Shown here: one piece after another, positions 3,107-25,238 of the stretch
Position numbering within the stretch: position 1 is the stretch's first letter
How the letters are laid out: each line of letters begins with the position of its first letter
Origin: Arcobacter sp. LA11
GTDB lineage: Bacteria > Campylobacterota > Campylobacteria > Campylobacterales > Arcobacteraceae
DNA: 64,000 bases
NCBI RefSeq assembly: GCF_001895145.1
Contig: NZ_BDIR01000006.1
Span: forward strand, 124,001 to 188,000
Direction: 5' to 3'
Made by a program: the position numbers and the translations under genes
The notes under the pieces: generated by a model
Told to the model about the DNA's origin: nothing
The model's input: only the letters and a program-made list of their open reading frames with translations
Database searches by the model: none

Positions 3107-3116
3107 ATTGATTCTC

Positions 3117-7049: not shown

Positions 7050-7080
7050 TAGTGTAAATCCCAATCTGGGTTTTACACTA
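7050..7080. terminator. Bidirectional terminator, feo operon / chaN
   Basis: TAGTGTAAA and TTTACACTA arms with an inner CCCA/TGGG pairing form a long hairpin exactly between two convergent genes. It overlaps the stop codon of the minus-strand ChaN gene. Confidence 0.7.
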
Positions 7081-7971: not shown

Positions 7972-10900
7972 TCTTTTCCTTTTTATTTCTTATCTTTATT
8001 GAGTATGCTATAGGAATATATAATAAGTTTATCATAGTTGCTCCAAGCAGACCAAATCCAATACTAACAGCTAATGGTTGCATTAGTAAACTCTCACCAG
8101 AAGCTAAAAACATTAATGTAAAAAGTCCTAAAACAGTCGTAATAGATGTTAACAAGATAGGTCTTAATCTTAAGGTTGCATTTTCTATTAATTCTTCATA
8201 TGACTTAGACTTTTTTAGAAAATTCAACATCAATAATGTATCATTCATAACAATTCCTATAAGTCCTACAAAACCAAGCATTGAAGAAAAAGTAAGTGGT
8301 AAGCCCAAAATAAAATGACCTACTAATACTCCAAAAATTGATAGGGGAATTACAGTTAAAGAAAATAAAGAGAGAATAAAGGATTTAAAAAACCATGTTA
8401 GAATAAGCAATATTCCAAAAATTGCAAAAATCAAACTCTTTGTTATATCTTTTTGAATTTGTTTATTTTTTCCAGCTTCACCTTTTATATAAACTTTTAT
8501 CCCTTTGGCTTTTATAATCTCCAAATCTGCTTTTATTTTTCTATAAAACTTTCTAGACGTTATAGTTTTTTTATCTGTACTTGCACTAATACTAAATACT
8601 TTCTCAAGATTATCTTTTTTTATATTTGATAAAGTATTTTTGTAAATAATCTTTGAAATATCATATAAAGAGACTTTCATTGTACTATTTGGAACCTCAA
8701 CCATCAGAGTTTTAAAATTCTCTAATTTAGTTTTATCTACTACATATAATTTTAACTCTAAAAGTTCATTATTGTCATTTACAACTTTTGTCAGTTTTTG
8801 AGTTTTTAAATAAACTCTTAAACTTTCAATAATATTTTTCTGAGTAAAACCTAATCTTCTACCATAATCATTTATATCCACTTGTAAAGCAATATCACTA
8901 TAATTCATATCATCTTTTATATTAAAAAGCCCATCTATTTTTGACATCTTTTCTTTTAATAAATCTATAGATTCTTTTACTTTTTTTTCATTATTACTTG
9001 AAAAAGATATAAGAATATCACTTTTAACTACCCCTGTTTGAGGGATATTCAACTCAAGGTTCATCTCTTTTTTATATTTTTTAAACCAATCTTGTAAATC
9101 ATTCCTAATCATCTTTGCCGTTTGTTTTCTTGTTCTTTCTTCTTGGCTATTTTTTCCAAAGAGTTTAAAGTATGGATTAATTTCTCTATTAAAATAATCA
9201 TCTGCAATTTTTGGTTTTAGATTAATCGTAATTGTAAATAAGTTATCACCCTTTTCATGGCTAGAACGTCCATCTGTTTTCATACCAATAGTAGTATGAA
9301 TTGAAGAGTAATCTTCTTTTTCAAGTTTTTTTAATAAGATTTTTTCTAAAGGCTTAATCTTCTTACTTGTATATGACATAGAGTTATTTGCTACTTTTCC
9401 TGTTATATTTATACTCATGGCATCAAATTCAGGGAAAAGTATAAACTTAGATTTTTTTATAAAAAGAAAAGAGATAAACAAAATTAAGACTATAAAAAAG
9501 ACTACAAATATATATTTATATTTTATACAAAAAAGTAGCATCTTTTTATATAAATTTCCTAAAGTATCCCACATTTTATCTTTATAATTTATTTTATATT
9601 TTGATTTATCGCTAACTATTAATTTATAATGGGATGGTAAAAATACAAAACTCTCAATAAATGAACTTACGATTAAAACAACTACCATCAAAGGAATAAT
9701 CTTTACAAAAACTCCTAATCCTCCACTTATAAATAAAAGTGGTAAAAAAGCAATAACTGTTGTCAATAATGCAACTAAAAGAGTTGGTAAAACTTCAACT
9801 GTTCCGTCAATACAGGCAGTTTGAATATTTTTCCCTAATAATCTATGTCTATGTATATTTTCACTTACAACAATTGCTTCATCAACTAATAATCCTAAGC
9901 TTAATAATACACCTATTAAAGATAAGGTATTTAATCCACTACCAAAAAAGTCTAAGCCAATAAGTCCAAAAGCAAGACTTACAGGTATTCCAATTAAAAC
10001 AACAAGTGAAATCTTAAAAGAGATAAAAATCCATATTGCAAAAAAGAGTAAGATAAGTCCTATAATAATATTTGAACTAATCACATTAAGTCTTGTTTTT
10101 ATCCAAAAAGAACTATCATTTAATACTTTAATTTCTAAAGAAGAATGTTCTTTTTCATACTTTGATACTAACTCTCTTATTTGTTTAGATAGTTTTATAC
10201 TATCACCTTTTTTAGCTTTTTTTGTCATTATAATTATTGATTTTTTAGCATTTGTTCTAGTACTTAAAGAGTTTTTTTCAAAAAGATATTTTACTTTTGC
10301 TATATCTTTTATTGCTAAAGTTTGATCTTTTATTTTTATCTTTATATCTAAGATATCTTTTTTTGTAAGTCCAGAAACTTTTGTACTTACAAAATATTGC
10401 TCCACATTTGATTTGATTTTACCAATAGGATAAATAGAAAATATGGAATCAATAGCTTCAATAGCTTCAATTTTATTTAAGCCATAAGCATCAAGTTTTT
10501 TATAGTCTAAAACTATTCTAAGTGTTTTATCAAACTTTCCTATCAAGTCTGATTTATGAATATATTCTAATTTTTTTATCTCTTCATTTAGTTCTTTTAT
10601 TATATTTATATTTTTTTTATAATCTTTTTCATTTGAATAAATAGAGAGTGATAATAAAGGAAAAAATCTCTCTACAGTGTAAACTCTTGGTACTTTCATA
10701 TTATCAGGTAAAGTAGTATCTAAAGCCTCTATTTGTGTTTTTATATCATTTATGATTAAACTCTTTGAAGAACCTTCTTCAATATCTGCACTTATAGAAT
10801 AACTACCTTTTAATATAAAAGTTATTATATTTGATAACAAAGGGTTATTACTTAAGATTTCTTCACAATCTTTAACAATCAAATTATCTAGAACTTCACT

Positions 10901-11080
10901 ACTACTACTTCTATAACTTCCACTAACAACCACTGTTTCTAAAGAAGAAGGAGGAAACATCTCTTTTGATAAATTTTCGTATGAGAAATATGAAATCATT
11001 AAAAGAAGTATAAATAAAAGATGGTTTAGAGCTCTATTATTTAAAAAAAATTCTACTATTTTTTTTACTATTAAATCCAA
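7964..11080 (-). CDS. RND-family efflux permease without adaptor gene
   Basis: 1038 residues, the AcrB size class: a transmembrane helix near residue 14-34, a large periplasmic loop, helices 2-6 near 330-470, a second large loop, and the last helices near 870-1030. The proton-relay motif of TM4 is LLVDEAIVVSENI (Asp-Glu instead of the AcrB Asp-Asp), and TM10 has GIVMNDTLLM (Asn-Asp instead of the AcrB Lys). Both depart from AcrB. No membrane-fusion or outer-membrane factor lies nearby. The start is TTG at 11078-11080 with a weak ribosome site. It overlaps chaN. Possibly exports a porphyrin or other haem-pathway product; this is inference. Confidence 0.88.
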   Translation of the reverse strand: MDLIVKKIVEFFLNNRALNHLLFILLLMISYFSYENLSKEMFPPSSLETVVVSGSYRSSSSEVLDNLIVKDCEEILSNNPLLSNIITFILKGSYSISADIEEGSSKSLIINDIKTQIEALDTTLPDNMKVPRVYTVERFFPLLSLSIYSNEKDYKKNINIIKELNEEIKKLEYIHKSDLIGKFDKTLRIVLDYKKLDAYGLNKIEAIEAIDSIFSIYPIGKIKSNVEQYFVSTKVSGLTKKDILDIKIKIKDQTLAIKDIAKVKYLFEKNSLSTRTNAKKSIIIMTKKAKKGDSIKLSKQIRELVSKYEKEHSSLEIKVLNDSSFWIKTRLNVISSNIIIGLILLFFAIWIFISFKISLVVLIGIPVSLAFGLIGLDFFGSGLNTLSLIGVLLSLGLLVDEAIVVSENIHRHRLLGKNIQTACIDGTVEVLPTLLVALLTTVIAFLPLLFISGGLGVFVKIIPLMVVVLIVSSFIESFVFLPSHYKLIVSDKSKYKINYKDKMWDTLGNLYKKMLLFCIKYKYIFVVFFIVLILFISFLFIKKSKFILFPEFDAMSINITGKVANNSMSYTSKKIKPLEKILLKKLEKEDYSSIHTTIGMKTDGRSSHEKGDNLFTITINLKPKIADDYFNREINPYFKLFGKNSQEERTRKQTAKMIRNDLQDWFKKYKKEMNLELNIPQTGVVKSDILISFSSNNEKKVKESIDLLKEKMSKIDGLFNIKDDMNYSDIALQVDINDYGRRLGFTQKNIIESLRVYLKTQKLTKVVNDNNELLELKLYVVDKTKLENFKTLMVEVPNSTMKVSLYDISKIIYKNTLSNIKKDNLEKVFSISASTDKKTITSRKFYRKIKADLEIIKAKGIKVYIKGEAGKNKQIQKDITKSLIFAIFGILLILTWFFKSFILSLFSLTVIPLSIFGVLVGHFILGLPLTFSSMLGFVGLIGIVMNDTLLMLNFLKKSKSYEELIENATLRLRPILLTSITTVLGLFTLMFLASGESLLMQPLAVSIGFGLLGATMINLLYIPIAYSIKIRNKKEKND

Positions 11081-11175: not shown

Positions 11176-13104
11176 TTAAAATTTGTAATTTAAACCTGCA
11201 TAATAAAATCTACTTCTTAACTGGTACTCATAGTCATCATCAAGTCTTTTATTTGTTAAGTTCTCTATACCAAATCTAACAGTTAAATCTTTTGTAACTT
11301 TTTTTGATAATTGCATTGCGGCTGTTCCATATGCACCAAGTTTTTTATAATCTGCATCATATTGGTTACCTGTATAGCTGTATCTTAAACTTGAATCTAT
11401 TTCATAAGGTAATTCATACGATATTTTTGCATTTAATGTATGTTTTGGTTTTAATTTTAACTCTCTACTAGTTTCTTTATCTTCTGTTTTTAGATAAGTA
11501 TAATTTAAATCAAAATCTAAACCATCTATAATATTATCTTGTTGATACTCTAGTTCAATACCTTTTGTAATAGCATTATCAACATTTCCATATTGTCTAA
11601 TTGAAATAGGGTCATCAAATGGGCAAGGTCCAAATGCCCAAGTTGCACAAATTGGATTTGCTTCAGTTCCAGATTCAGTTGTATAATCAATTAAATCCTT
11701 TACATCATTGTAAAATGCCGTAGTTTTAAATGTAAGGTCTTGACCTTTATATTCAAATCCAAGTTCATAAGAATCTGCTACTTCAGGCTTTAGATTACTA
11801 TCTCCATCAAAACCATACCCAGCGTAATAATTTCTAAATTGATAATCATCAGAAGATTGAGTAACTGTTGGAGCATTAAATCCATGTCCATATCCAAGCT
11901 TTAATCTCATATTTTCTTGTAATTTATAAACAGCAAATGCTTTAGGACTTATTTCTCCACCAAAATTTTCATGCTTGTCATATCTAATACCTAATGTTAA
12001 TATCAGATTATCAGTAATATCTATTTCATCTTGTAAATATGCAGAGGAATAAGAAAAACTATCTCCAAATGCATTTGATGAAGCAGTATCATATACTTTA
12101 TCATAAGATTCTCTTCTTATTTCTGCTCCTGCTATAATAAAATGCTTATCAATACTATCTATGATAGCTTCAGTATTTAAAACAGTGTTACTTAACTTAT
12201 GAGTATAAGCAAACTGTTCTATCTTATTTTCAGATTTTGTAGTATAAAGAGATGCTTTAAAAGCAAAATCACTAAATTCTTTATTGTATGTAATAGCAGC
12301 ATGTATTTTATCTAGATCATAATAGTTATCATAATCTACAGTTTTTCTTTTCTCATCTGATTTTAATAATGATATTTCAATATTTTGAGTATCATCAATA
12401 GTAAACCATCCATTTGCCATAACATTTTTAACTTTTTTTCCTTCAAGTTCTGTTGCATTAGAATCAGAAGGTTTAGTAGTTAATTTTTCATCATTGAACT
12501 GTCCAAAAATAGAATATGCGAATTTATCATTAACTTTTCCACTTGAAACAATTGAATAATCACCTTCATTTCCACCTCTAGAATGGCTTGTTCTTCCAAG
12601 CTTAATATCAAGCTCTGACTCTATTTCATTTGTTGGTTTCTTTGTAATAATATTAATTACTCCACCTAAAGCATTTGAACCATAGAGTGAACTCATTGGA
12701 CCTCTTACAACCTCAATTTTTTCAATTGCACTTAAAGGAAGCCAGTTATATTGAAAATCAGAATGTCCAATCTGTGCATCAGAACCTGAGACTCTTCTTC
12801 CATCAATAAGAATAAGTGAGTTTTTACTCTCTAAACCTCTAATCGAAATAGTTTTTCTACCAAAAGTAGATGAATTATTAACTCCCCTACTAATACCAAC
12901 TGTTTCTTCTAAAACTTCATTTATAGAATTAACACCCATTTTTTCAATTTCATCAGCAGTAATAATTGATGTTGAACCTGCTGTATCGATTAATTGTTTT
13001 TTACTTTTCGCTGTAACAACTACATCATTTAATCTATCTCCTGCATATAGATTTGATGCGAATATCATTGCAGAAGTTACTGCAATTAATTTTTTATTTA
13101 ACAT
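11176..13104 (-). CDS. TonB-dependent outer-membrane receptor 1
   Basis: About 642 residues from the preferred ATG at 13104, which has AAAAGGG ahead of it; an in-frame ATG five codons earlier would place this ribosome site inside the gene. Signal peptide about 1-20 (ends LYAGD). TonB box DVVVTAK follows, then the plug (GVNSINEVLEETVGI; VRGPMSSLYGSNALGG; VINIITKK) and a 22-strand barrel ending in Phe (YYAGLNYKF). A loop contains CATWAFGPC, which could form a disulphide. FepA/CirA-like overall. Substrate not readable; its place next to the CobN-like and ChaN genes suggests haem or another tetrapyrrole. A Fur box lies directly upstream. Confidence 0.9.
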   Translation of the reverse strand: MLNKKLIAVTSAMIFASNLYAGDRLNDVVVTAKSKKQLIDTAGSTSIITADEIEKMGVNSINEVLEETVGISRGVNNSSTFGRKTISIRGLESKNSLILIDGRRVSGSDAQIGHSDFQYNWLPLSAIEKIEVVRGPMSSLYGSNALGGVINIITKKPTNEIESELDIKLGRTSHSRGGNEGDYSIVSSGKVNDKFAYSIFGQFNDEKLTTKPSDSNATELEGKKVKNVMANGWFTIDDTQNIEISLLKSDEKRKTVDYDNYYDLDKIHAAITYNKEFSDFAFKASLYTTKSENKIEQFAYTHKLSNTVLNTEAIIDSIDKHFIIAGAEIRRESYDKVYDTASSNAFGDSFSYSSAYLQDEIDITDNLILTLGIRYDKHENFGGEISPKAFAVYKLQENMRLKLGYGHGFNAPTVTQSSDDYQFRNYYAGYGFDGDSNLKPEVADSYELGFEYKGQDLTFKTTAFYNDVKDLIDYTTESGTEANPICATWAFGPCPFDDPISIRQYGNVDNAITKGIELEYQQDNIIDGLDFDLNYTYLKTEDKETSRELKLKPKHTLNAKISYELPYEIDSSLRYSYTGNQYDADYKKLGAYGTAAMQLSKKVTKDLTVRFGIENLTNKRLDDDYEYQLRSRFYYAGLNYKF

Positions 13105-13117
13105 TATTTCCCTTTTC

Positions 13118-13136
13118 AATATTAATAACTATTATT
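13118..13136. promoter_or_regulatory. Possible Fur box for TonB receptor 1
   Basis: AATATTAATAACTATTATT scores 13 of 19, just upstream of the chosen receptor start. Weaker than the others, but well placed. Confidence 0.5.
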
Positions 13137-13204: not shown

Positions 13205-14053
13205 TTATTTTGTCTCCTTTTTCTCCTTATCTAATTTTTTTAATTCTTCTATATTTTTTGATTCAACCCAAAAAACTGCATCTTGACTAAGTTCTCTTCC
13301 TTTGAATTTTTTATTATGTCCAATACCTTTGGCATTGAAACTCCATAATCCTTCTTTTGGAATATGAAAAGTAAACTCACCTCTTTCGTTTGCTTTAAAT
13401 TCAATTACTTTAAAACTTTGTTGAGGAGCATTTGTTTTCATATTTGTTGTTTTATTATTTTCCATATCAATATCATAATTTAATAATTCAACTTCAATAT
13501 GTGCAAAAGGAATAGGAATTCCTGAAGCTTTTACCATTCCTGAAAAACTACTTCCAGCCCAAATACCATAAGGTTTTGATAAAGGAATAATTTCAGCTTC
13601 AAGACCCAATTCTTTGTCCCAATCAGTTGGTTTACCAGCAACATTTACAACCATTTTTGTAATCATTTGTAAATAGATTCCCTCTACTTCACTAAATGAA
13701 GGAGCAGGTTTCATTACAAAAAGATGATCACCCATCTTTTTAGCTTTATATTTTGAAGTATATGCTTTTGCTTCATTTTTACCTGTGAAAACTATTGGCT
13801 TTAAAGTATCCTTTAAATCTGTTTTTATTGTTTTATGCATTACATAAAATTCTTCTGGTTCTAATTTTTCATCACCTTTATGTTGCGTACCCATATCATA
13901 TGTTTTTAAATTTGTATACGGATGCATTTGAACATGAGCTAAATTAATACTTTTCCCAGTATTTAAAGTCATTTCAGGGGTATACATAAGTTGTGATTGT
14001 GCAAAAAGTGTACTACTTAATAAACTTAAACATAATAATTTTTTAAACTTCAT
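13205..14053 (-). CDS. DUF4198-like periplasmic protein
   Basis: 282 residues. Signal peptide about 1-18 (ends STLFAQ). An extended, beta-rich body with several His/Met-containing stretches (HVQMHPYTN, MGDHLFVMKPAP) and a C-terminal part, FTFHIPKEGLWSFNAKG, typical of DUF4198 proteins that accompany metal-uptake systems. The tail is highly charged (KKLDKEKKETK). Last gene of the ExbB-like/DUF2149/CobN-like operon, 9 bases after the small periplasmic gene. It may hand metal or tetrapyrrole to the CobN-like enzyme; that role is inferred only. Confidence 0.75.
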   Translation of the reverse strand: MKFKKLLCLSLLSSTLFAQSQLMYTPEMTLNTGKSINLAHVQMHPYTNLKTYDMGTQHKGDEKLEPEEFYVMHKTIKTDLKDTLKPIVFTGKNEAKAYTSKYKAKKMGDHLFVMKPAPSFSEVEGIYLQMITKMVVNVAGKPTDWDKELGLEAEIIPLSKPYGIWAGSSFSGMVKASGIPIPFAHIEVELLNYDIDMENNKTTNMKTNAPQQSFKVIEFKANERGEFTFHIPKEGLWSFNAKGIGHNKKFKGRELSQDAVFWVESKNIEELKKLDKEKKETK

Positions 14054-14062
14054 TTCTTTCCT

Positions 14063-14362
14063 TTATTCCAATATATCTTTACTTTTTATATAAACTTCAT
14101 GTTGTGGTCCAGCATCAAAAACTGCACTATAATCAACTTCTGGTTTTTTAAAATTCACTTCACTTTCACTATTTAGTTTGGTATCTAAAAGTATTTTCTT
14201 TTCATTTGAAACAACTCTAAATTTTACTCCACCGGCACTACTGCCGTCACTAAATCCACCTTCGCAAGTGACTGTTCCATCACCTTCATCTATACAACTC
14301 ATAATAGGAGTATGTGCAAAAGCAGCTATTGTAAATACTAATGTAATTAAAAAACTTTTCAT
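14063..14362 (-). CDS. Small exported protein of the CobN-like operon
   Basis: 99 residues from the ATG at 14362, chosen because GAAAGG precedes it and it gives a clean signal peptide (MKSFLITLVFTIAAFAHT). An upstream in-frame ATG at 14386 would lie inside the CobN-like gene. The mature part has two cysteines (MSCIDEG, TVTCEGGF) that could be disulphide-linked, a Gly/Ser-rich segment, and GPQHEVYIKSKD near the end. Not assigned to a family. Located between the CobN-like and DUF4198 genes, so probably a periplasmic accessory of that system. Confidence 0.7.
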   Translation of the reverse strand: MKSFLITLVFTIAAFAHTPIMSCIDEGDGTVTCEGGFSDGSSAGGVKFRVVSNEKKILLDTKLNSESEVNFKKPEVDYSAVFDAGPQHEVYIKSKDILE

Positions 14363-14363
14363 T

Positions 14364-17300
14364 TTATGCCTTTCTTTTAAATTCATAAGCTACACCAGCT
14401 AACATAAGTCCAAATAACAATGCAAAAATTACTTTTTGAGTAGAGTCATCCATAAACTCTTCTTTTTTAACCTTTTCAAGTTTTTGACCTTTTACTTTTG
14501 GTTTTTCTATTTTCTTTGGTTTTTCCATTTTCTTATTTGACTCTTGAGTAGGAGCAGGTGTTAATTGTCCACTTGGAGTCATAAGCCCAAACCCAATTGC
14601 TTTTTTATCTACAAAGTCTTTAAATTTTGTATTATAAGTTTTAACTTTATATTTTTGTTGTAACTCTTTATACAGTTCAACTAATTTTTTCAAAGTATTT
14701 TCATCAGTTTTGAAATACCCTTTCCTATTTGCTTCTAATATTTTTTGAGTAAATTGTGCTAAAGCATCAGGATTAAATTGTTTAAACCACTCTTGTATTT
14801 TTAAGTCATACTTATCATTTACATATACTTCAACAAACTCTTGCCATTGATCATCTCTTACAACATTTGGATCAACAACTTGCCATCCCCAAAAGTTATT
14901 CATTCTATCTAAGACTGTTAGTGTTCCAGAGTAGCCTTCTGCTTGCATCTCTTTTATCCATTTTGGATGAAAATATCTTCCTCTTAGTTCTTGAGATAAA
15001 AACTCACCTGTACTTTGAATTTTTGCATTATTTGGATCTCTTAAATTTGCAATAAATGTTTTTGGAGCTTTTCCATCTACATTTCTTACTGCCATTGCAA
15101 TTGAACCAAAATATTCAAAAGGATCATCAGATGTTAAAAGTCCATAAAGATTTGAAGTTCTAGAGAAGATAATTCCCTCTGTTCCACTTAGATTTTTAGA
15201 GTATAAATCTAAGCTTACATGTTTTTCGCCCCATCTTTTTGGGTCACTTCCATAATAATGTCCAAGTTTTTGAACATAATTTTGAGAAATTCTTTGGTCA
15301 TCATTCCATCTTGAAGTATCACCTATTTCATCAACCCCACTACCATAATCACCTGGTTTATTTGAAAAAATTCTAATTGTTGATAAATACTCAGCCTCAT
15401 CTTTTGAAATACCTCTTGTCTTTTCTAACTTTTCTTTCATAGCTAAAGTATTAATTCTTAAGTAGTTATTATCTTCTTTTAGTTTTGCTACCTTTTCAAC
15501 TGCTTTTGCAATTAGCTGCATTGGTTGAGGGAAAGTATCTCTATAAAGACCAGTGGCAGAAATCACAACATCAACTCTTGGACGTTTAAGTTCACTATAT
15601 GGAATTATTTCTACATCCTCAATTTGACCTTTTGCAGTCATTTTTGCATGCTTTAACATTTTCTTAGGTTTTACTAACCAATCATCAGGAGTGATACTTA
15701 AAACAGCTTCAATTCTAGGAACTGTAACTAAACTTGCTACCCAACTTGATACACTTTCACCTAAATATTTTTGAATCATTTGTTTAACAATATTTTGAAT
15801 AAATTTATTTGAAATTCCAGTTTCATTCCAAACAGGTCTTACTCCCATTGCATATAAAATTTGAGATTCTAAAACTCCATAATGTCTCATAGTTTCTAAA
15901 GACCATAAATTAAAAGTTAATTTTTGAGGATATTTCCCATTCTCTTTATAATAATTTTCAATAAAATCCTTCATTAGTTTACTACCTGTTTTATAAGCAG
16001 CTTTTGTTGGAACTTTACTAGGGTCAAAACCATACATATTTATACCTGTTGGCAAAGATTCTGGATTTCTAATAGAATCTCCTCCTACACCAGTTTCTAT
16101 ATACTCTCCATCTAATGCTCTCATAAAGTTTTTTATCTCTTTTGTATTTACAAAACTATCTCTATATTTTCTTGCAACTTCTAAATATGGCTTTAGATTT
16201 TTATCTTCAAGCTCATTAAAATCTTTATTTTCAATTACAAAATCATTTAAGAGTTTGTATGACTTTGACTCTGGAAACTTTTCATAATTTTGAGTAAAGA
16301 AGTTTTTGTCTCCTTCAACCATCTGTATAAATTCACTTCCAACCATCTGTAAAATTGTAGATATTAAATGTTCTTTTTTAGGATATGTTCCAAAAGTATG
16401 CATCCCTAAAGGCATTGCAGATTTTGAAGTACCTAAAATATAATCTTCCACTTTTGAAAGATAAGCATCAAAATTCTCTTTAATTTCCACTTCAGAAAAT
16501 TCAACATCTTTATGTACATTTAAATTTACAGTTGTCTGGGTAATTTGATTTTTTAACTGACCTTTTAACATCCCATCATCAACACTTTTGTATTGATTAA
16601 TAAAATCCATAATCTCACTAAGTTCTTTATATGTTCCAGTAAGTCCAAAAGGAGGTGTTTGATGAGAAATTAAAGTTGCTCTACCTCTTCTTTTGGCTTG
16701 AATGGCTTCTGCTAAGTTATTTGTAATATAAGGATATACAACAGGTACATCACCTAATACAGATAAGGCATCATCTCCAATACTAAGTCCTCTTTCTTTT
16801 CCAGGAGACCATTCTTGCGTTCCATGAGTTCCATAATGCACTATCGCATCAGCTTTGAATTGTTTTCTAACATATAAATATCCAGCTAAATATGAATGAG
16901 AAATAGGAACTGTTGGATTATGCCAAAGTCTACTATCATCTCTAGTAATATCGATATTTTGTTCTCTAATACTATCATCTCTTTCAGCACGTCTTGGTTG
17001 TGGCATTATCAAAATATTTCCAATTTTTTTTCTTGGAACTAAGAAATACCATTTCCCATCTTTATATATTAAACTTTTCGATTTAAGTGGATAATCCCAT
17101 ACTTTAATCATATTTGTTCTAGTTTTAACAGGTAACTTGTAAAACTCTTTCATATAATCTTCATATGGAAATAAAGCAGCACTATCTTCTTCTATCATCT
17201 TCCACGCTTTATCATAAAGATTTACATCATAAAGCATTTGAAGACCTTTTGTTGCTTCAATTCTTATCTCTTCATGTTTTTTAGCTTCTGTTGTATAACC

Positions 17301-18521
17301 TTTTTCTTTAAATGTTTTAAAAGTTTGTTCTAAACTTTCTGGAAGATTTAAAAAACTTGCACCCATATTATCTACACCATAAGGGTAGTTATAATACATA
17401 ATTGCAACTTTTTTATCTTTATTTGGCATTCTTTTTAATTTTGAAATATTTATTGCTTTATTTGCTAAAGAGTAAAGTTGAGGGAAAATTGGTTCAAGTT
17501 TTTTTGTTATCTTATTTTGTGCAGCAACAATTAAAGGATCTGTAAAACCTAATGTTTCAGGAATTATAAAAGTCATTGGAATCATTGGAAAATTTACACC
17601 ATTTATGTCATTTAACCAATCTTTTGTATCTCCTTGTCCATAATAAAGAGCGTGTAATATAGGTACATTTAACTTTTTATAATCATCTTTTAAACTCTCG
17701 TGGTCAATAATCATAATTTGAAAATTAACAATAACATCAACTATTGTTTTATTTTTAAATCTTAAAAATTGTTTACCTACAGCATCATCACCTGAAATGT
17801 TAGTAAAAAAAGGAATAGTATAGTAATTCTTTTTTTCAAAATAAGAAATCATTTCATTTATATGAGCCATACTATTTGACACAATAGAACCTCTATGCAT
17901 ACCAATTGCAATAACAGGCTTATCTATATTATTTAAATCTATCTTTGCAAATTTCGCATACTCTTCAAGTGAATTAAAAGCTAAACTTGAACTTTTTGGA
18001 TGATAAATACCCTCTTCTGGTACAATTAAAGCTTTTTTGTATTTTTCATTTGATGTTTTAAGAAGTTTATTTTGAATGAAAATTACAAAATTTTTAAAGT
18101 TTTCTTGCCCTCCATTATGCCAATATTCATTTAGTAAAATATTATCTTCAATTGATATATTTTTTCTGTAAGGATTTTCTTTTTTAATTGAAATAGGAAT
18201 GATTATTTTTTTATCATCTAATTTAATTAAAACATCTTTATATTGTTCAAGCATACTATTAATAGATCTTGAACCAGCTAATGAATCAATCATAATAATT
18301 TTATATTTTGAAAGTTCTTTAAACTGATTTTCTTTTTTTAATTCGTTTTGAAATAAAAACTTAATATCTAAATCTTTTTTCTTCCCTATATCTATAACTT
18401 CAACTGCTTTTGAAGCTTGTGTACTTTGTCCCATAGTACTACTAATAATTAATACATCATTTTTTGCAAATAAACTTATTGAAAAAAAATATAGTATTAA
18501 AAATAAAACTTTAATCTTCAC
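14364..18521 (-). CDS. Exported, membrane-anchored CobN-like chelatase
   Basis: 1385 residues, slightly longer than classical CobN. The CobN/magnesium-chelatase H-subunit fold is clear: HYGTHGTQEWSPGKE at about 560-575, NNLAEAIQAKRRGRA after it, and GIFSRTSNLYGLL-type segments later. Unlike cytoplasmic CobN it starts with a signal peptide (MKIKVLFLILYFFSISLFA) and ends with a Lys-rich linker and a membrane helix (VIFALLFGLMLAGVAYEF) plus basic tail, so the catalytic part should face the periplasm. No CobS/CobT ATPase genes are present. Upstream are the DUF2149 and ExbB-like genes. This matches HmuS-type proteins of Bacteroidetes, reported to take iron from haem. Substrate and direction here are inference. 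Confidence 0.85.
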   Translation of the reverse strand: MKIKVLFLILYFFSISLFAKNDVLIISSTMGQSTQASKAVEVIDIGKKKDLDIKFLFQNELKKENQFKELSKYKIIMIDSLAGSRSINSMLEQYKDVLIKLDDKKIIIPISIKKENPYRKNISIEDNILLNEYWHNGGQENFKNFVIFIQNKLLKTSNEKYKKALIVPEEGIYHPKSSSLAFNSLEEYAKFAKIDLNNIDKPVIAIGMHRGSIVSNSMAHINEMISYFEKKNYYTIPFFTNISGDDAVGKQFLRFKNKTIVDVIVNFQIMIIDHESLKDDYKKLNVPILHALYYGQGDTKDWLNDINGVNFPMIPMTFIIPETLGFTDPLIVAAQNKITKKLEPIFPQLYSLANKAINISKLKRMPNKDKKVAIMYYNYPYGVDNMGASFLNLPESLEQTFKTFKEKGYTTEAKKHEEIRIEATKGLQMLYDVNLYDKAWKMIEEDSAALFPYEDYMKEFYKLPVKTRTNMIKVWDYPLKSKSLIYKDGKWYFLVPRKKIGNILIMPQPRRAERDDSIREQNIDITRDDSRLWHNPTVPISHSYLAGYLYVRKQFKADAIVHYGTHGTQEWSPGKERGLSIGDDALSVLGDVPVVYPYITNNLAEAIQAKRRGRATLISHQTPPFGLTGTYKELSEIMDFINQYKSVDDGMLKGQLKNQITQTTVNLNVHKDVEFSEVEIKENFDAYLSKVEDYILGTSKSAMPLGMHTFGTYPKKEHLISTILQMVGSEFIQMVEGDKNFFTQNYEKFPESKSYKLLNDFVIENKDFNELEDKNLKPYLEVARKYRDSFVNTKEIKNFMRALDGEYIETGVGGDSIRNPESLPTGINMYGFDPSKVPTKAAYKTGSKLMKDFIENYYKENGKYPQKLTFNLWSLETMRHYGVLESQILYAMGVRPVWNETGISNKFIQNIVKQMIQKYLGESVSSWVASLVTVPRIEAVLSITPDDWLVKPKKMLKHAKMTAKGQIEDVEIIPYSELKRPRVDVVISATGLYRDTFPQPMQLIAKAVEKVAKLKEDNNYLRINTLAMKEKLEKTRGISKDEAEYLSTIRIFSNKPGDYGSGVDEIGDTSRWNDDQRISQNYVQKLGHYYGSDPKRWGEKHVSLDLYSKNLSGTEGIIFSRTSNLYGLLTSDDPFEYFGSIAMAVRNVDGKAPKTFIANLRDPNNAKIQSTGEFLSQELRGRYFHPKWIKEMQAEGYSGTLTVLDRMNNFWGWQVVDPNVVRDDQWQEFVEVYVNDKYDLKIQEWFKQFNPDALAQFTQKILEANRKGYFKTDENTLKKLVELYKELQQKYKVKTYNTKFKDFVDKKAIGFGLMTPSGQLTPAPTQESNKKMEKPKKIEKPKVKGQKLEKVKKEEFMDDSTQKVIFALLFGLMLAGVAYEFKRKA

Positions 18522-18539
18522 AAACTAACCTTTCTCTTA

Positions 18540-18854
18540 TTATTTTTTATTCTCAGGAATATAAACCATACTTCCATCTTTTAATTTATAAGCAACTCCT
18601 GCTTTTGTTCCTTCTCCTTCTCCTATTTTCCCTTCTGATTTATACTTATCAATCTTTTCACCTTTTTTTATAACTACTTCCATATTTTTTTTACCTGGAT
18701 TTTTTATAACTGTTACATCATCACTATTAAAAGGATTAAGGGGATTTTGAGCAATTGTTATCAATAAAGCTGCAATAATTACTAGAAAAACATCTACTAA
18801 ATTCACAGCAGAAAGTATGGGATTTAAAGACTCATCTTCATGCAACAGTTTCAT
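18540..18854 (-). CDS. DUF2149 protein, ExbD-like topology
   Basis: 104 residues. A short N-terminus precedes one transmembrane helix (about 18-37, NLVDVFLVIIAALLITI) with Asp21 near its start, as in ExbD/TolR (compare PLIDVVF in the ExbD of this window). A small periplasmic domain follows, with KKGEKIDKYKSEG and AGVAYKLKDGSMVYIP. Overlaps the ExbB-like gene by 17 bases and precedes the CobN-like gene by 18. Probably pairs with the ExbB-like channel as a proton-driven motor for the CobN-like protein (inference). DUF2149 family call from sequence pattern and context. Confidence 0.8.
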   Translation of the reverse strand: MKLLHEDESLNPILSAVNLVDVFLVIIAALLITIAQNPLNPFNSDDVTVIKNPGKKNMEVVIKKGEKIDKYKSEGKIGEGEGTKAGVAYKLKDGSMVYIPENKK

Positions 18855-19380
18855 TTGTTACCTTGTTTAAATGTAAAATATCTTTAATCTCATGAGCATA
18901 CCAACCTTTTCTAACTGTTGTTATCCAATAAGTAATAGAAGCCGTAATTAAAGCAAAGATAACTGCTGCAAAAGCAATAATAAGATTTTCACTTATTCCT
19001 TGTACATTTCCTGAAGATAGTGCTTTTAAGGCTGGCCCCATAGGAATCATAGTAGCAACAAGACCTAACATAGGGGCAACTCTTGTTATAATAGAAGTAT
19101 TTTGTAACTTTTTATAAGCATGAACTTCTAAATCCTCTAAACTATTAAATCCACTGTTAACTAAATAGTTAACAATTGCATAGCCTTTTATAAATTCAAA
19201 TTGTTCATTTTTTAAGAATTTTTTATAGTTTTTTTCGCTTTTTTTTCGCTTAAACCATTGAGTAAAAAATACTCCTATTTCAAATATTGAATAAATAAAC
19301 AATAATACTATAAGTATCAGTATAGGCGCTAAAAAGGTATTTGAAACCTCATACATTAGATTTTCTAAAAGTGAAATCAT
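18838..19380 (-). CDS. Second ExbB/TolQ/MotA-type proton channel
   Basis: 180 residues with three membrane helices (about 15-37, 100-125 and 130-155). It carries a family core TRVAPMLGLVATMIPMGPALKAL-like segment starting near residue 99 and a basic cytoplasmic loop (WFKRKKSEKNYKKF). Distinct in sequence from the ExbB at 2594-3106. First gene of the operon ExbB-like, DUF2149, CobN-like, small exported, DUF4198. A strong Fur box lies 34 bases upstream. Expected to form the stator channel with the DUF2149 protein. Confidence 0.85.
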   Translation of the reverse strand: MISLLENLMYEVSNTFLAPILILIVLLFIYSIFEIGVFFTQWFKRKKSEKNYKKFLKNEQFEFIKGYAIVNYLVNSGFNSLEDLEVHAYKKLQNTSIITRVAPMLGLVATMIPMGPALKALSSGNVQGISENLIIAFAAVIFALITASITYWITTVRKGWYAHEIKDILHLNKVTNETVA

Positions 19381-19413: not shown

Positions 19414-19432
19414 AATATTGATAATAATTATC
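19414..19432. promoter_or_regulatory. Fur box for the CobN-like operon
   Basis: AATATTGATAATAATTATC scores 16 of 19, the best Fur match I found here, and nearly equals the tonB site at 3859. It predicts iron repression of the whole operon. Confidence 0.75.
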
Positions 19433-19587
19433 TTAATCAATTAATAAAAATATAAGTTAATATAATCTTTATATATATTTATAATATTATTTAATATATT
19501 ATGGAGTTTAATTTTATTTGTTAATAATTGCTATTTAGTAATTTTGTATTAATGAGAAAGATTATTTTGAGAATAAATTTTTTATAG

Positions 19588-19618: not shown

Positions 19619-21676
19619 TTAAAATGTAGCTTTTATACCAGTGTAAAAGTAAGTACCTACATTTGAACCTAGAACTTCATCAACTTCTCTATTAAATAAG
19701 TTATCAATTCCACCATAAATCTCAAGATTTTTATTAACTTTATATCTTGCAGCTAAATCAACCAAACTATAATCATCAGTTTGAGTAGTATTTAAAGTAT
19801 CTGTATATTGTTCACCAATATATCTAATCATTAAATTTGTTGAAAAGTCTTTAGTGACTTTATAATTGGCATTTATTGAAGCAGAAATATCAGGAGTATA
19901 AGTTAGTTCTTTTCCTGTACCTTCATCTTCAGTTTTTAGATATGTTAGATTAAATCCTAAATCTAAGCTATCATTTATATCATATCCTAGTGAAACCTCT
20001 GCACCTTTGATATCAACATTATCTAAATTCTCAGAAGTATAGTACTTAGCTGCTCCACTTCCATACGATACTAACTCTATCTTGTCTTTAATTTTATTGT
20101 TAAATAAAGTTAACTGTGAAGACAATGAATTATATTTATTGGATAATGAAACTTCAAAAGATTGAGATTGTTCTGGTTTTAAATCATATACAGTAGTTTT
20201 TGGCCCAAATATTACCTCCGAACCAAATCGTTTTCCATCTTTAAATAAGGGAGATACAACAAAAAGTTCAGCTATATCAGGAGCTCTGTAACCTTGTGCA
20301 TAATTAAATCTAAGATTAGTATTTTCAAAAAGTTTTTTTACTATTCCAGCTTGAAGTGTTGCTTTATTATCGGCATTTGAAATATTATCATATCTTGCAC
20401 CTATAGTTGCAGTTAAAGTATCTGTAAATTCTATTTCATCTTGAATAAAAAGTGATTTATATTTAACTACTTTTGTAATAAACTCACTTGAAGATGCATC
20501 AGGGTTAATTGCACTTGATTCTCTTTTTTCTTTTCTATATTCTACTCCTGAAGTAATAAAGTTAGAATCATTTAATGCATACTTAATATTTGATTCAAAA
20601 GTATCAATAGTTACATTTGCACTAAATTTTGTATTAGTTGGGCCTGTAAAATTTATTGGGTCAGTAAAGTTTCTTTTTTTATAATATGATCTATATATTT
20701 TAGCATCAATTGATAAATCATCATTAATCATATAATCAAAATCAGCAGAAGCATCTAGTCTTCTATTTTCATCTCTAGAGTTAACTGGTGTATTTTTAAC
20801 CAATACAGGTCCACCATTTACATATTTTGCATTTCCAATATATTGACCAGTTCGTTCTTCTTTAAAATAATTAAAATCAATACCAGCAATAAGATTATTT
20901 GTTAAATCTGTTTCTAACCTAGTACCAATTGTTTTTACATTTGTTTCATCTCTATATGTAACATCATGATTTGCAGAGACTCCATGTTGTGGATCAGTTG
21001 CAATTACAGCACTTGTAGTTGGATTTGCAGCTACTTGTGAATAAGATTTTGATATTGTATAAGGTGTTGTATCATTTATAGAACCATAAACTTTATATCT
21101 TAACTTATCAGCTTTCCCCATAGTATTAAAATTAAAATTTCTATTTTTAGCATCATGATCTTTGTTTGCACCATACTTCATATCAACAACTGTACTATTA
21201 TGGTCAATTTTTTTAGTAATAATATTAATCACTCCTCCAATAGCATCTGAACCATATAATGTTGACATAGAACCTTTAACTATTTCAATTCTTTCAATCA
21301 TTGAAGCAGTAATTCTTGTCATTTCATATGGGCTTTCGGTTTCTCCTGAAAGCCTCTTTCCATCTATTAAAATAAGTGTTCCATTTGCACCAACCCCTCT
21401 TAAAGAGATAGCAGCTTTAGATTTTGCACTTGGGTGTGGAAATCTTGCATATTGTGCATTTATTGAAGGTATTTTTTCTAAAATAGTATCTAAAGTTGAT
21501 GCACCAGTTTTTTCTATATCTTCTTTTGTAATAACAACAACTGATGCAGTTACTCCATCAATTGACTTCTCCGTTTTTGTAGCAGTAGTAACTGTGATTT
21601 CACCTAACGAATTTGCATGTATGCTTCCAACAGCCACTACACTAGCTATTGCTGAAACAAATATCTTTTTTCTCAT
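19619..21676 (-). CDS. TonB-dependent outer-membrane receptor 2
   Basis: 685 residues. Signal peptide about 1-21 (ends SIHANS). TonB box EITVTTATK at about 25-33. Plug motifs IEKTGASTLDTIL, ISLRGVGANGTLILIDGKR in pieces, and IVKGSMSTLYGSDAIGG; then the barrel, ending in Phe (YFYTGIKATF). Good ribosome site GAAGGAAG. It follows the 116-residue gene by 31 bases without a terminator, so it is probably the last gene of the operon that starts with the substrate-binding protein at 23141. Ligand unknown; resembles CirA/haem-siderophore types. Confidence 0.9.
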   Translation of the reverse strand: MRKKIFVSAIASVVAVGSIHANSLGEITVTTATKTEKSIDGVTASVVVITKEDIEKTGASTLDTILEKIPSINAQYARFPHPSAKSKAAISLRGVGANGTLILIDGKRLSGETESPYEMTRITASMIERIEIVKGSMSTLYGSDAIGGVINIITKKIDHNSTVVDMKYGANKDHDAKNRNFNFNTMGKADKLRYKVYGSINDTTPYTISKSYSQVAANPTTSAVIATDPQHGVSANHDVTYRDETNVKTIGTRLETDLTNNLIAGIDFNYFKEERTGQYIGNAKYVNGGPVLVKNTPVNSRDENRRLDASADFDYMINDDLSIDAKIYRSYYKKRNFTDPINFTGPTNTKFSANVTIDTFESNIKYALNDSNFITSGVEYRKEKRESSAINPDASSSEFITKVVKYKSLFIQDEIEFTDTLTATIGARYDNISNADNKATLQAGIVKKLFENTNLRFNYAQGYRAPDIAELFVVSPLFKDGKRFGSEVIFGPKTTVYDLKPEQSQSFEVSLSNKYNSLSSQLTLFNNKIKDKIELVSYGSGAAKYYTSENLDNVDIKGAEVSLGYDINDSLDLGFNLTYLKTEDEGTGKELTYTPDISASINANYKVTKDFSTNLMIRYIGEQYTDTLNTTQTDDYSLVDLAARYKVNKNLEIYGGIDNLFNREVDEVLGSNVGTYFYTGIKATF

Positions 21677-22058: not shown

Positions 22059-22168
22059 TTTATATCCCTTGTATTTTTTGTAATATTAGTTTTAACTTCA
22101 GCTTTTTTTCTTAAGTTATTCCATTTTTTCTGTAACTCTTTAATATCAATTTTCTCGTTGTTACTCAT
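22055..22168 (-). CDS. 37-residue basic peptide in a Fur-controlled operon
   Basis: Starts MSNNEKIDIKELQKKW and is rich in Lys and Asn. AAGGAC lies seven bases before the ATG. It overlaps the end of the binding-protein gene by eight bases, and its TGA overlaps the ATG of the 116-residue gene. Double coupling and a good ribosome site support translation. No family recognised. Possibly a helical cytosolic peptide; function unknown. Confidence 0.5.
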   Translation of the reverse strand: MSNNEKIDIKELQKKWNNLRKKAEVKTNITKNTRDIK

Positions 22169-23141
22169 AATAAAGTCCTTGTGAAGGAAGTTTTCCTCCA
22201 ATAAGCTTTGGATTACTATTTTTTAAAATATCATAGAAAAATTCCAAATCTTTTTTAGAATCAATTGCATTAACACTATTTAAATTTACATGCTCAATTG
22301 AATCAGCCAAACCTTCTGCTTCTAACATAGGAAGAGTTTTTACTACTAGTTGCGCTGCTTCTTTTGGATTTGATTTATACCAATTTAACGATTTTTCATA
22401 CTCAGTCATAAATCTATTTATTAACTCTTCATTACCTTCTGTTTTACCTAAAAATGCCATGCCTGCTTGAGGAACTTTTGCTTCAGTTTTAAAAAGTTTT
22501 CCCCACTCTTCTTGTAAGTCAACACTTCTATATAAATCTGGAGCAATAAGTTTGATAGGGAAAGAGCCTGTTTTTCTCAAAGCAATTGAGATCGCAGGTT
22601 CCGCTAACAATGCATGGTCAACTTGTCTTAAAACTAACATCTGCATCGCATCAATTGGACTTGATACATATTTTAGTTTAAAGTCTTTTTTAGGGTCTAA
22701 ACCTCTTTTTTTAATAAGTTCTTGAAATACAATATCTGGCATATCTGCTCTAAAAGGAACTACTATTTCTTTATCTTTAAAATCACTTAAAGTTTTAAGG
22801 TCTTGATTTCTTGAAACCATACCTAATATACCCCAAACAGAGACATTTAAAAGTTTAATATCTATATTCTTATTATATAAATTTGCTGCCACATTTGTAG
22901 GAACTGCAATAAACTTTACATCACTATTTAAAACTAAAGCTCTTAGTTCATCAGGGTTTTTCCACAACCTAAATTCTATTTCTTTTCCTAAGTCTTTTAA
23001 AGCATTTGTTTTTATCATGTGCATTATAGGATGTGACACTGAGGCAAAAGGCCCTGCAACCACAAGCTTCTCTGCAAATAATTGATTAGACAATAAATAA
23101 AAAGCCGTAGCTAGAAAAAGTATTTTAAAACGTTTTATCAT
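22161..23141 (-). CDS. NitT/TauT-type ABC substrate-binding protein
   Basis: 326 residues. Signal peptide about 1-23 (ends LFAEK). Periplasmic binding fold of the SsuA/TauA/NMT1 group: KLVVAGPFASVSHP, LWKNPDELRALVLN, FIAVPTNVAANLY, then KEIVVPFRADMPD and ALLAEPAISIALRK. Ligands of this group include nitrate, sulphonates, thiamin precursors and others, so the substrate cannot be named. It has its own two Fur boxes upstream and lies next to nnrS and an ABC permease/ATPase. Iron control and a co-located TonB receptor suggest a metal complex or haem-linked solute (inference). Confidence 0.85.
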   Translation of the reverse strand: MIKRFKILFLATAFYLLSNQLFAEKLVVAGPFASVSHPIMHMIKTNALKDLGKEIEFRLWKNPDELRALVLNSDVKFIAVPTNVAANLYNKNIDIKLLNVSVWGILGMVSRNQDLKTLSDFKDKEIVVPFRADMPDIVFQELIKKRGLDPKKDFKLKYVSSPIDAMQMLVLRQVDHALLAEPAISIALRKTGSFPIKLIAPDLYRSVDLQEEWGKLFKTEAKVPQAGMAFLGKTEGNEELINRFMTEYEKSLNWYKSNPKEAAQLVVKTLPMLEAEGLADSIEHVNLNSVNAIDSKKDLEFFYDILKNSNPKLIGGKLPSQGLYYE

Positions 23142-23158
23142 ATAAGTTCTCCTTTTTT

Positions 23159-23177
23159 ATTAATGATAATTAATATT
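23159..23177. promoter_or_regulatory. Fur box 1 upstream of the binding protein
   Basis: ATTAATGATAATTAATATT scores 14 of 19, 18 bases before the gene start. Confidence 0.6.
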
Positions 23178-23216
23178 AATAAATGAATAGTATCAAGTGT
23201 TGTCTTAAAGTTCACT

Positions 23217-23235
23217 AATTTTGATAATCATTATT
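23217..23235. promoter_or_regulatory. Fur box 2 upstream of the binding protein
   Basis: AATTTTGATAATCATTATT scores 15 of 19, with an unbroken 12-base core match (GATAATCATTAT). It lies between the nnrS stop and the binding-protein gene. Confidence 0.65.
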
Positions 23236-23247
23236 ATATAGTACTAT

Positions 23248-24492
23248 TTAACCAGGAATTCCATCAGCTCTTTTATTCATTAAAAAGGGAAAGAATATTT
23301 TCATATAAAAGATAAATGGCATTGCCCAAAGAATTGATGAAATAATATAAGCTTCAATCATATATTCTTGATAATATGGAATGAAACTTCTTATAAAAGT
23401 AGATACTATAATTAAAACTACTCCAAGTGCAATCCAGAAGTTTGAAAAAAGATGTCGTCCAGTATGAATTGTAGAAATTATTATCATTACAATATAAAAA
23501 ACTAATCCAAAAACACCAGTTGTAAGAAAATGTCTAAAATGATTCAACATATATACTTCTACATTTATATAATCATATCCTATAAAACCATATCCACAAG
23601 CCATCAATACTAAAATAGATATCATATATATAACAAAAGGTTTGAAAAGTATATTATTGTCTTTTAATACAAAATCATTAATAATCCCTAAAATTGCAGC
23701 AGCACTTGCAAATGCAATATAGGCTAATATAGAATTATCAGGATATAAAAACTCTAATATTGTGTATAAACTTACACAAAAAATAGCAAGATTATATCTT
23801 GGAGCTCTAGAATAAAAAGTTTCATCAATATCTTCATATTCTAAAAGTTCATTTATTGCTTCCATATTAATTCTTCTTAGTGCTAAAATTTCTAATACTG
23901 TAAAAGCACCAAGGGCTAAAATAAGAATATCTTTTGTTGAAACCTCAATTTTTCCTAAAACTGATAAAAAGAAAAATATTTGTATTCCAAGTAATATTAA
24001 CAAAGCAAAAGCTAAAGATAAATGTCTTCTTTTAGGATCTAAGACTACTGGTTTAAAAACCAAAGCTATTATCCAAATAAGTGGTAGAATATTTAAAATC
24101 ATCACAATATAAATATTTATATAATCCATAAACCAAAAACTTATTCGGCCTAATAACCAGATAATAATAATTGTTCCTAAATGTCTTCCAACAATAGGCA
24201 CAGTTCCAGGGAAAAGTTCAGGGGCACCAGTTAAGAAGAAAGCTATAATTCCGGCAATTCCAATGCCATATAACATCTCATACATATGCCAAGTTAAAGG
24301 ATCACTTACAAAAGATAAATTAATATATCCAGCAAATGCAAAAGACCAAAGTATTATTGAAATTACAATATATGGAGCTAAAAGTAAAAACATTGGCCTA
24401 AAACCATATGCTAAATATGAAGGATATTCTCCACTTGGATAATGGCTATAATGATTTGTAGCATATTGTTTTAATTCTTTTTCTTCACTCAT
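23248..24492 (-). CDS. nnrS: NnrS-family polytopic membrane protein
   Basis: 414 residues, about twelve transmembrane helices. NnrS hallmarks: YLAYGFRPMFLLLAPY at about 27-42, DPLTWHMYEMLYGIG at about 66-80, and AFFLTGAPELFPG. NnrS of Rhodobacter is a haem- and copper-containing membrane protein tied to nitric-oxide stress (established there). Here it overlaps the ABC ATPase gene by four bases, in an operon permease-ATPase-NnrS with a possible Fur box upstream. Conserved His in WHMYEM may ligate haem. Why an NnrS sits in an iron region is not clear. Confidence 0.88.
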   Translation of the reverse strand: MSEEKELKQYATNHYSHYPSGEYPSYLAYGFRPMFLLLAPYIVISIILWSFAFAGYINLSFVSDPLTWHMYEMLYGIGIAGIIAFFLTGAPELFPGTVPIVGRHLGTIIIIWLLGRISFWFMDYINIYIVMILNILPLIWIIALVFKPVVLDPKRRHLSLAFALLILLGIQIFFFLSVLGKIEVSTKDILILALGAFTVLEILALRRINMEAINELLEYEDIDETFYSRAPRYNLAIFCVSLYTILEFLYPDNSILAYIAFASAAAILGIINDFVLKDNNILFKPFVIYMISILVLMACGYGFIGYDYINVEVYMLNHFRHFLTTGVFGLVFYIVMIIISTIHTGRHLFSNFWIALGVVLIIVSTFIRSFIPYYQEYMIEAYIISSILWAMPFIFYMKIFFPFLMNKRADGIPG

Positions 24493-25238
24493 TTTAATTC
24501 CAATTCAAAAGTTTCTATTATTGTTCTATTTGATAATAGTTTTGCAGTTTGCTCGTAAACAAACTCATCATCTCTCATACTTTGAGGTACATCATATTTA
24601 TATGTTTTAACTATATGTCCAACAGGTTCAGCTTTTAAAAGCAGTACCTCATCACTTAATTTTATTGCTTCCATTAAATCATGGGTAATAAAAAGAATAC
24701 TTAAGTTCTCTTTTTCAATAGTTTTTATAAGCATATTTTGTAACTCTTTTTTTAATCCAATATCAAGGGCAGAAAAAGGCTCATCTAAAAACAGTAAAGA
24801 TGGTTTTGTTACCATTGCTCTTGCGAAAGAAACACGCTGTTTCATCCCTCCACTTAAATCTTTTGGAAACTTTTCAAAATCATCTTCATCTAAACCAAAC
24901 TCTAAAGCAATTTTTCTTGATTCTTCTTCTCTTTTATCTTTTTTTATTCCTTTTGCTTTTAATCCTAAAGAGATATTATCAATTACATTTTTCCAAGGAA
25001 GTAACCTTGCTTCTTGAAAAGCATAAGAAGAGGATTCAAAACTATTTTTTATCTTTCCTTCTTCCAAGTCAAGAAGATGCGCACAAAGATGTAAAAGTGT
25101 CGTTTTACCTCCTCCACTAGGACCTACTATTGATAAAACTTTTCCTTTTTGAAGTTTAAAATTTATATCTTTTAATATATCATCAAAGCCAAAAGAATGA
25201 GAGACATCTTCTACTAGTAACTCTTCTATTCTCTCCAT
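24489..25238 (-). CDS. ABC transporter ATP-binding protein (NitT/TauT type)
   Basis: 249 residues, full-length ATPase. Walker A GPSGGGKTT at 39-47, signature LSGGMKQRV at about 128-136, Walker B LLFLDEPFSALD at about 148-159, and switch His in ITHD. Closest in pattern to SsuB/TauB-type ATPases. It overlaps the permease by 13 bases and nnrS by four. With the permease at 25226 and probably the binding protein at 22161 it would form one importer. Confidence 0.9.
   Translation of the reverse strand: MERIEELLVEDVSHSFGFDDILKDINFKLQKGKVLSIVGPSGGGKTTLLHLCAHLLDLEEGKIKNSFESSSYAFQEARLLPWKNVIDNISLGLKAKGIKKDKREEESRKIALEFGLDEDDFEKFPKDLSGGMKQRVSFARAMVTKPSLLFLDEPFSALDIGLKKELQNMLIKTIEKENLSILFITHDLMEAIKLSDEVLLLKAEPVGHIVKTYKYDVPQSMRDDEFVYEQTAKLLSNRTIIETFELELK

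Follow-up and report, generated by a model that had tools for sequence, protein, structure and literature searches.

What does a relative of the cobaltochelatase subunit CobN do when it is predicted to be exported and is encoded beside a proton-channel-like pair? The question is raised by an operon of Arcobacter sp. LA11 in a 64,000-nucleotide stretch of contig NZ_BDIR01000006.1 (positions 124,001 to 188,000), here called the window. As a sequence-only reading of this DNA had claimed, the five genes run in one direction; all are on the minus strand, and they overlap or are spaced by 9–19 base pairs. In order of transcription, they encode a predicted ExbB/MotA-like proton-channel subunit of 180 amino acids (aa) (18838..19380; MotA_ExbB, PF01618, 27.0 bits against a cut-off of 22.9, E 4e-6), a DUF2149 protein of 104 aa that is a candidate ExbD-like partner (18540..18854; PF09919, E 8e-30), an exported CobN-like class I chelatase of 1385 aa (14364..18521; PF02514, 966 bits), a small exported protein of 107 aa as called, which is a NikL-like accessory (14063..14386; NCBIfam NF058648, 33.5 bits, below the cut-off of 100), and an exported DUF4198 protein of 282 aa, a NikK-like accessory (13205..14053; PF10670, E 1e-35). 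We propose, with a confidence about evenly poised between right and wrong, that the operon specifies an iron-repressed, inner-membrane-anchored periplasmic chelatase of an exported branch, equipped with its own proton-channel stator, that would take iron from an imported tetrapyrrole.

A Predicted Exported Branch of Class I Chelatases

Judged by its sequence, the CobN-like protein is not a cytoplasmic cobaltochelatase and belongs to the exported BtuS/HmuS-type branch. Its relatives include the enzymes that insert metals during the synthesis of vitamin B12 and chlorophyll. Hydrophobic segments are predicted at both ends, as an N-terminal signal (residues 1-19) and a C-terminal helix (about residues 1363-1381); the sequence-only reading had reported both, and a GQKLE motif lies just ahead of the helix. 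The protein is the only PF02514 member in the genome. The absence of CobS, noted earlier for the surroundings of the operon, extends to the whole genome in a search with TIGR01650 (CobT was not searched for separately). The protein matches HmuS (PDB 9d26) at E 2e-115, and its structure model (predicted local distance difference test, pLDDT, 81) shows a six-domain chelatase body. A fold search with this model returns Z 35.1 to CobN 7c6o and 34.3-34.5 to HmuS 9d26 and 9p4s, a tie, so the fold search cannot tell which of the two is nearer.

The tree separates them. Built from 49 proteins, with L061 and the long-branch L077_Cupriavidus_a left out (L numbers denote loci), it splits with 100/100 support into biosynthetic cytoplasmic CobN and BchH proteins (13 rows) and an exported, stator-linked branch that includes HmuS (36 rows). 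A C-terminal helix is predicted in 34 of the 36 exported rows, the remaining two being just under the threshold, and in none of the 13 biosynthetic rows. Grouping with cytoplasmic CobN had been named beforehand as an outcome that would refute the sequence-only reading; the window protein falls on the other side of the split. It belongs to a Campylobacterota clade (10 rows, 100/100) that is sister to gammaproteobacterial proteins; together with proteins of Undibacterium, Diaphorobacter, and Azospirillum, these make up a larger group that is also supported. Within the exported branch, the proteins of Bacteroidota hmu operons have a clade of their own (placement 86/83), and a third, corrinoid-linked clade contains L012, which comes from a different genome of the family to which Arcobacter sp. 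LA11 belongs.

CobN of aerobic B12 synthesis (M. tuberculosis 7c6o) shares with the window protein the fold, the catalytic His of HxGxHG, and an Asp at the position of HmuS residue 1209, but it is cytoplasmic, anchorless, and dependent on the CobS/CobT ATPase. BtuS-type exported proteins have been described as a third CobN-related kind and proposed to act in metalloporphyrin salvage (PMC6460266). B. fragilis BtuS1 and BtuS2 are likewise exported CobN-like proteins set apart from CobN and ChlH; the branch of the window protein differs from them in its Fur-type boxes in Campylobacterota and gammaproteobacteria and in its accessory genes. These findings suggest that many genes annotated as cobaltochelatase CobN encode metal-scavenging proteins.

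In Sulfurospirillum BB15 (L016, 7107-18343), a TonB receptor is flanked by two CobN-like genes, whose products share 68% and 51% identity with the window protein, and the locus has only one ExbB-like/DUF2149 pair. The CobN-like gene of L061 (G531:C18, 9919-13869) has had its HxGTHG motif destroyed (VSLFSN), and its ExbB-like and DUF2149 partners are kept.

Linkage of the ExbB-Like/DUF2149 Pair to the Chelatase

The corresponding proteins of the hmu operon, HmuU and HmuV, have been published as powering the outer-membrane receptor HmuR (PMC10100974). Gene linkage favors instead a role in which the pair acts on the chelatase. Above its cut-off, DUF2149 was found in 5 of 298 Campylobacteria genomes and in 17 of 398 genomes of Pseudomonadota, and every one of these clusters also encodes an ExbB-like and a CobN-like protein. 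The pair is linked to the chelatase across Campylobacterota, Pseudomonadota, Bacteroidota, and one Geobacterales plasmid. It is present at all loci found through CobN (six from a single-protein scan and nine exported-type plasmid loci), the divergent Cupriavidus_a plasmid protein excepted, and at none of the 13 biosynthetic CobN/BchH loci. Conversely, an AAA+/VWA chelatase partner is seen at 0 of 35 exported loci and at 5 of the 13 biosynthetic loci in view. That DUF2149 loci nearly all carry ExbB-like and CobN-like genes, while the biosynthetic loci lack DUF2149, supports a pair that serves the chelatase; in these linkage data, the pair tracks the chelatase rather than the receptor. Furthermore, the window, L072, and L028 each encode a complete genuine TonB-ExbB-ExbD set in addition to the pair, which is therefore not simply the TonB motor.

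The ExbB-like family alignment has a conserved P..GL.GT.IPMG motif, and the best PDB match of its profile is MotA, a weak one (E 0.008). DUF2149 has one N-terminal transmembrane helix and a small beta-rich periplasmic domain (model pLDDT 71, helix 12-36), with a near-invariant transmembrane Asp21 (26 of 27 sequences) that aligns with the ExbD Asp in a profile comparison short of significance. The sequence-only reading had proposed that the pair acts as a stator for the chelatase; the near-obligate linkage supports this, and the energy coupling is at present putative. We regard the pair as a putative proton motor for which the exported branch would have exchanged the CobST/ChlID ATPase. The L015 genome has an additional short contig (L033) on which DUF2149 and ExbB-like proteins are encoded; the part covered contains no CobN-like gene.

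The module is patchily distributed. The CobN-like protein is present in 2 of 16 genomes of the genus of Arcobacter sp. LA11, which, together with the few DUF2149-bearing genomes of the class, would fit horizontal spread. A scan of genome contigs with the single CobN-like protein reached only close relatives and Undibacterium.

Predicted Fur-Type Regulation and the Case for Iron

Iron is the best-supported metal for the window operon, as far as sequence can tell, because of a Fur box, the recurrence of such boxes in relatives, and the nearby FeoB, ChaN, TonB-ExbBD, FTR1, and flavodoxin genes. The Fur-like operator AGATAATTATTATCA lies on the minus strand at 19419-19433 (19417..19433 with flanking bases), 53 bases ahead of the ExbB-like start. 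It is a 7-1-7 palindrome that agrees with TGATAATNATTATCA at 13 of 14 positions, and it scores p=0.002 against shuffles of its own upstream region. The box had been described as the best of the window; it is real by this test but not uniquely best, as there are six one-mismatch sites and it ties with the five others. Across the whole window, 47 Fur-like sites have three or fewer mismatches to TGATAATNATTATCA, against 26 expected, a number reached in 0 of 100 shuffles.

In the relatives, regulator boxes were sought in the 250 bases upstream and compared with dinucleotide shuffles, each p value being per locus and uncorrected. Boxes like AGATAATTATTATCA precede the operons of L016, L071, L017, L058, L059, L057, and L060, with p values of 0.006 for L016, 0.022 for L071, <0.002 for Undibacterium, 0.002 for L057, <0.002 for L058, 0.004 for L059, and 0.026 for L060. 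The Fur link is not uniform: L010, L013, and L015 have no Fur box ahead of the first gene in the stretch covered, and in L013 a 12/14 Fur-type site lies ahead of the receptor. No convincing Zur or NikR motif precedes the window operon, and none beats its shuffles in this group, the one exception being a marginal match of NikR type ahead of the L057 operon (p 0.034). NikR itself was not found in the genome. Elsewhere, a Zur-like box (10/11) is located ahead of the receptor of L062.

As the substrate, heme is plausible. ChaN is encoded in the window and, together with a MauG-type di-heme peroxidase, next to the L015 operon; near the L010 operon there is a protoglobin gene. A search for a HugZ-type heme oxygenase gave only a partial match (116.9 bits of a 240-bit cut-off) in an unrelated neighborhood. 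We go no further than plausibility because the linked receptor, TBDR1, is CirA-like rather than heme-receptor-like: it matches CirA with 245 bits and heme receptors with 90 bits or fewer (PhuR 90), so heme is a candidate for the specific substrate and no more.

Comparison with HmuS

The closest known system is HmuS, which was described in 2025 as a chelatase relative that runs backwards on heme, converting it to PPIX and Fe(II), with large clusters of its family left unassigned (PMC12583661). HmuS-type homologs in Proteobacteria have been noted without a function (PMC12583661, PMC10100974), and our literature search found no paper on a Fur-linked Campylobacterota version, in agreement with the sequence-only reading. 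HmuS of B. thetaiotaomicron (PDB 9d26) and the window protein are both exported, with two anchors, share the six-domain class I architecture, and lie on the same side of the tree; their operons share adjoining ExbB-like and DUF2149 genes and a TonB receptor. We compared the features that the HmuS study sets out (PMC12583661). The HFG(T/A)HG motif is kept as HYGTHG, with the equivalent of His538, which is essential in HmuS (PMC12583661), and the equivalents of Glu577, Asp1208, and Glu1212 are conserved.

Other HmuS features are missing, and this weighs against our proposal. The Met-rich insertion in domain IV is absent: 258 residues with 7 Met lie between the landmarks, compared with 429 residues, 35 of them Met, in HmuS of P. 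nigrescens, and the insertion is likewise reduced in B. finegoldii. The head and neck heme ligands Met79 and His254 are replaced by Leu and Ile. Where HmuS has LSLDHxxEFMGG, the window protein has LTSDDPFEYFGS, with His1209 changed to Asp, and Trp1202 is replaced by Tyr. Asp at the 1209 position is common to CobN and most exported relatives, whereas HmuS, BchH, and proteins of the Azospirillum type, L027 and L062 among them, have His there. The proteins of Bacteroidota hmu operons are only about 25% identical to the window protein and lie in a different branch of the exported superclade. Beside the window operon no HmuY or HmuT was recognized, the receptor is CirA-like, and NikL/NikK-like, RND, and ChaN genes are neighbors. 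Given the missing insertion, Met79, His254, and His1209 and the separate clade, we reject membership of HmuS, to which the earlier note had likened the protein, though the two may work alike.

Proposed Mechanism

The export signal, two predicted anchors, chelatase fold, branch, His538, pairing, Fur-type operator, and iron neighborhood are computed features of the DNA and its products; the direction of the reaction, the identity of the substrate, the energy coupling, and the roles of FeoB and the RND pump are our inferences. A TonB-dependent receptor would import an iron-loaded tetrapyrrole, heme or a relative, to the periplasm. The CobN-like protein would bind it in the cavity of its body, where a conserved His and Asp would lie close to the metal, and would release the iron, that is, it would probably run in the dechelating (reverse) direction. 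The ExbB-like/DUF2149 pair may couple proton flow through the C-terminal membrane helix, opening the enzyme or turning it over, and this motor would stand in for the CobST/ChlID ATPase of the biosynthetic relatives. Released Fe2+ would probably enter through FeoB, and the demetallated ring may leave through the RND pump.

Several points bear against the motor part of this proposal. The profile comparison of DUF2149 with ExbD (hhalign E 0.067) is not significant and makes homology only suggestive; the DUF2149 model (pLDDT 71) has no fold match at E 0.001, and its sequence profile matches only one designed protein and chance ones. Loci found through DUF2149 contain it by construction, which leaves the CobN-found loci as the unbiased set, and the divergent plasmid protein Cupriavidus_a (L077) has no pair within the 13 kilobases in view. 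Finally, purified HmuS is active with NADH and without HmuU/V (PMC12583661), so the proton motor is not obligatory for dechelation.

This last result, together with the assignment of HmuU/V to energizing HmuR (PMC10100974) and the frequency of TonB receptors as neighbors, can be cited for an arrangement in which the pair powers only TonB and the outer-membrane receptors and the CobN-like enzyme is unpowered. Such an arrangement would be compatible with any substrate, and we consider it rather unlikely: genuine TonB-ExbB-ExbD sets stand alongside the pair, no receptor is seen adjacent to the pair and CobN at loci such as L012, L031, and L066, and the C-terminal transmembrane helix of the chelatase is confined to the pair-linked branch. 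The enzyme could also strip iron from a siderophore that is not a tetrapyrrole, for which the full-length similarity of TBDR1 to the catecholate receptor CirA, the missing head and neck heme ligands, and Fur control can be cited. The modeled cavity is structurally of the tetrapyrrole-chelatase type, the His/Glu/Asp set is retained, and the ligands of CirA-like receptors vary. We know of no protein of the class I chelatase fold that acts on siderophores, and we hold this explanation to be quite improbable. An ordinary aerobic cobaltochelatase CobN for B12 synthesis is extremely improbable. Its Pfam family (CobN-Mg_chel), an NCBIfam score near the cut-off (NF004644, 1168 bits against 1248), and the Asp at the 1209 position are as in CobN; the reading was rejected on predicted location (signal peptide and C-terminal anchor), the CobS search, and the tree, as the earlier note had anticipated, and no B12 genes were recognized among the neighbors scanned.

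The same machine might serve another metal, taking nickel, cobalt, or zinc rather than iron from an imported chelate, and this we judge distinctly unlikely for the window operon. Two products of the operon, the small exported protein and DUF4198, are similar to the accessory subunits NikL and NikK of nickel/cobalt energy-coupling factor (ECF) importers, a likeness that the earlier note did not contain. Moreover, the relative in Azospirillum (L027) adjoins nikR, that on Runella plasmid pRUNSL01 (L032) places CobN-ExbB-DUF2149 inside hypBFCDE, where a TonB receptor and a permease of the HupE/UreJ type are also encoded, and the Trichlorobacter and L066-L070 relatives sit with corrinoid genes. The P. 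aeruginosa PA1922-PA1925 operon, with the same gene content of CirA-like receptor, CobN-like, ExbB/D-like, and DUF2149 (compared by content), is published as Zur-controlled and responds to zinc starvation. Speaking for iron, the boxes ahead of the window operon and several relatives are Fur-type rather than Zur or NikR, and the genome has no NikR. NikL/NikK-like genes are present beside the operon in the window, L010, L013, and L016 and missing in L011, L015, L071, L072, and L073, and they are therefore accessory. The window genes are a tandem as in NikKLMQO importers, but NikM, NikQ, and NikO were not found near the operon, and the genome's second DUF4198 gene immediately precedes a CbiM/NikM gene on contig C11 (G000:C11:18139-19396; L097, L102), which is its own nickel/cobalt ECF importer, separate from the window operon. 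FeoB, FTR1, and ChaN are also nearby. Inventories of PF10670, PF01891, and PF01032 do not settle the metal.

The cousins in NikR, hyp, B12, and Zur contexts nonetheless mark the CobN-ExbB-DUF2149 family as one that looks metal-versatile, with the window member read as iron. The regulator would predict the metal of each family member, offering a candidate function for the unexplained Zur-regulated PA1922-1925 operon. More broadly, and only as a possibility that we find somewhat doubtful, class I chelatases might exist in two motor versions: a cytoplasmic, ATP-driven one (CobST, ChlID) and a periplasmic, proton-driven one (ExbB-like/DUF2149), the latter being metal-versatile dechelatases for iron, zinc, nickel, or cobalt that are told apart by their Fur, Zur, NikR, or B12 context, with the window operon as the Campylobacterota iron member. 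The Runella locus is a candidate nickel version. L066-L070 and L012 make up another exported clade of CobN-ExbB-DUF2149 systems; its proteobacterial members adjoin CobB, CobO/BtuR, and CobD-like genes, which suggests that a step of corrinoid or cobalt handling takes place in the periplasm.

Neighboring Genes

The surroundings of the operon were described earlier as containing TonB receptors and ChaN, and both are present. TBDR1 (11176..13119, minus strand) has full-length similarity to CirA and is kept beside the CobN operon in Campylobacterota; the RND-family exporter (7964..11080, minus), also a recurrent neighbor in L010, L016, and L072, separates it from ChaN, a heme-binding uptake protein (7078..7971, minus; PF04187). 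FeoB, the ferrous iron importer (4313..6814, plus strand), has Fur-like boxes upstream at 3864-3935. The genes at 2205..3842 (minus) encode genuine ExbD, ExbB, and TonB and are distinct from the ExbB-like/DUF2149 pair. Upstream of the operon lies a second TonB-dependent receptor, TBDR2 (19619..21676, minus; best NCBIfam TonB-hemin, 203.5 bits, below the cut-off of 316.9), followed by a substrate-binding protein, NnrS, an ATP-binding cassette ATPase, and a permease (22161..26008, minus). The set of the window has Fur-like boxes at 23164-23236. On a Diaphorobacter plasmid (L026), a similar set flanks the CobN-like gene, and the binding protein also occurs beside it in L072. FTR1 and flavodoxin genes are also found in the window.

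Between TBDR1 and the RND gene, at 11132-11166, a 16-pair inverted repeat (AAAATCACTGTGAAAAATATTTTCACAGTGATTTT) is followed by a T-rich stretch and may be a terminator or an operator. A multiheme-cytochrome-like protein (34890-38252) and a 670 aa protein (38408-40420) each have Fur-like boxes just upstream.

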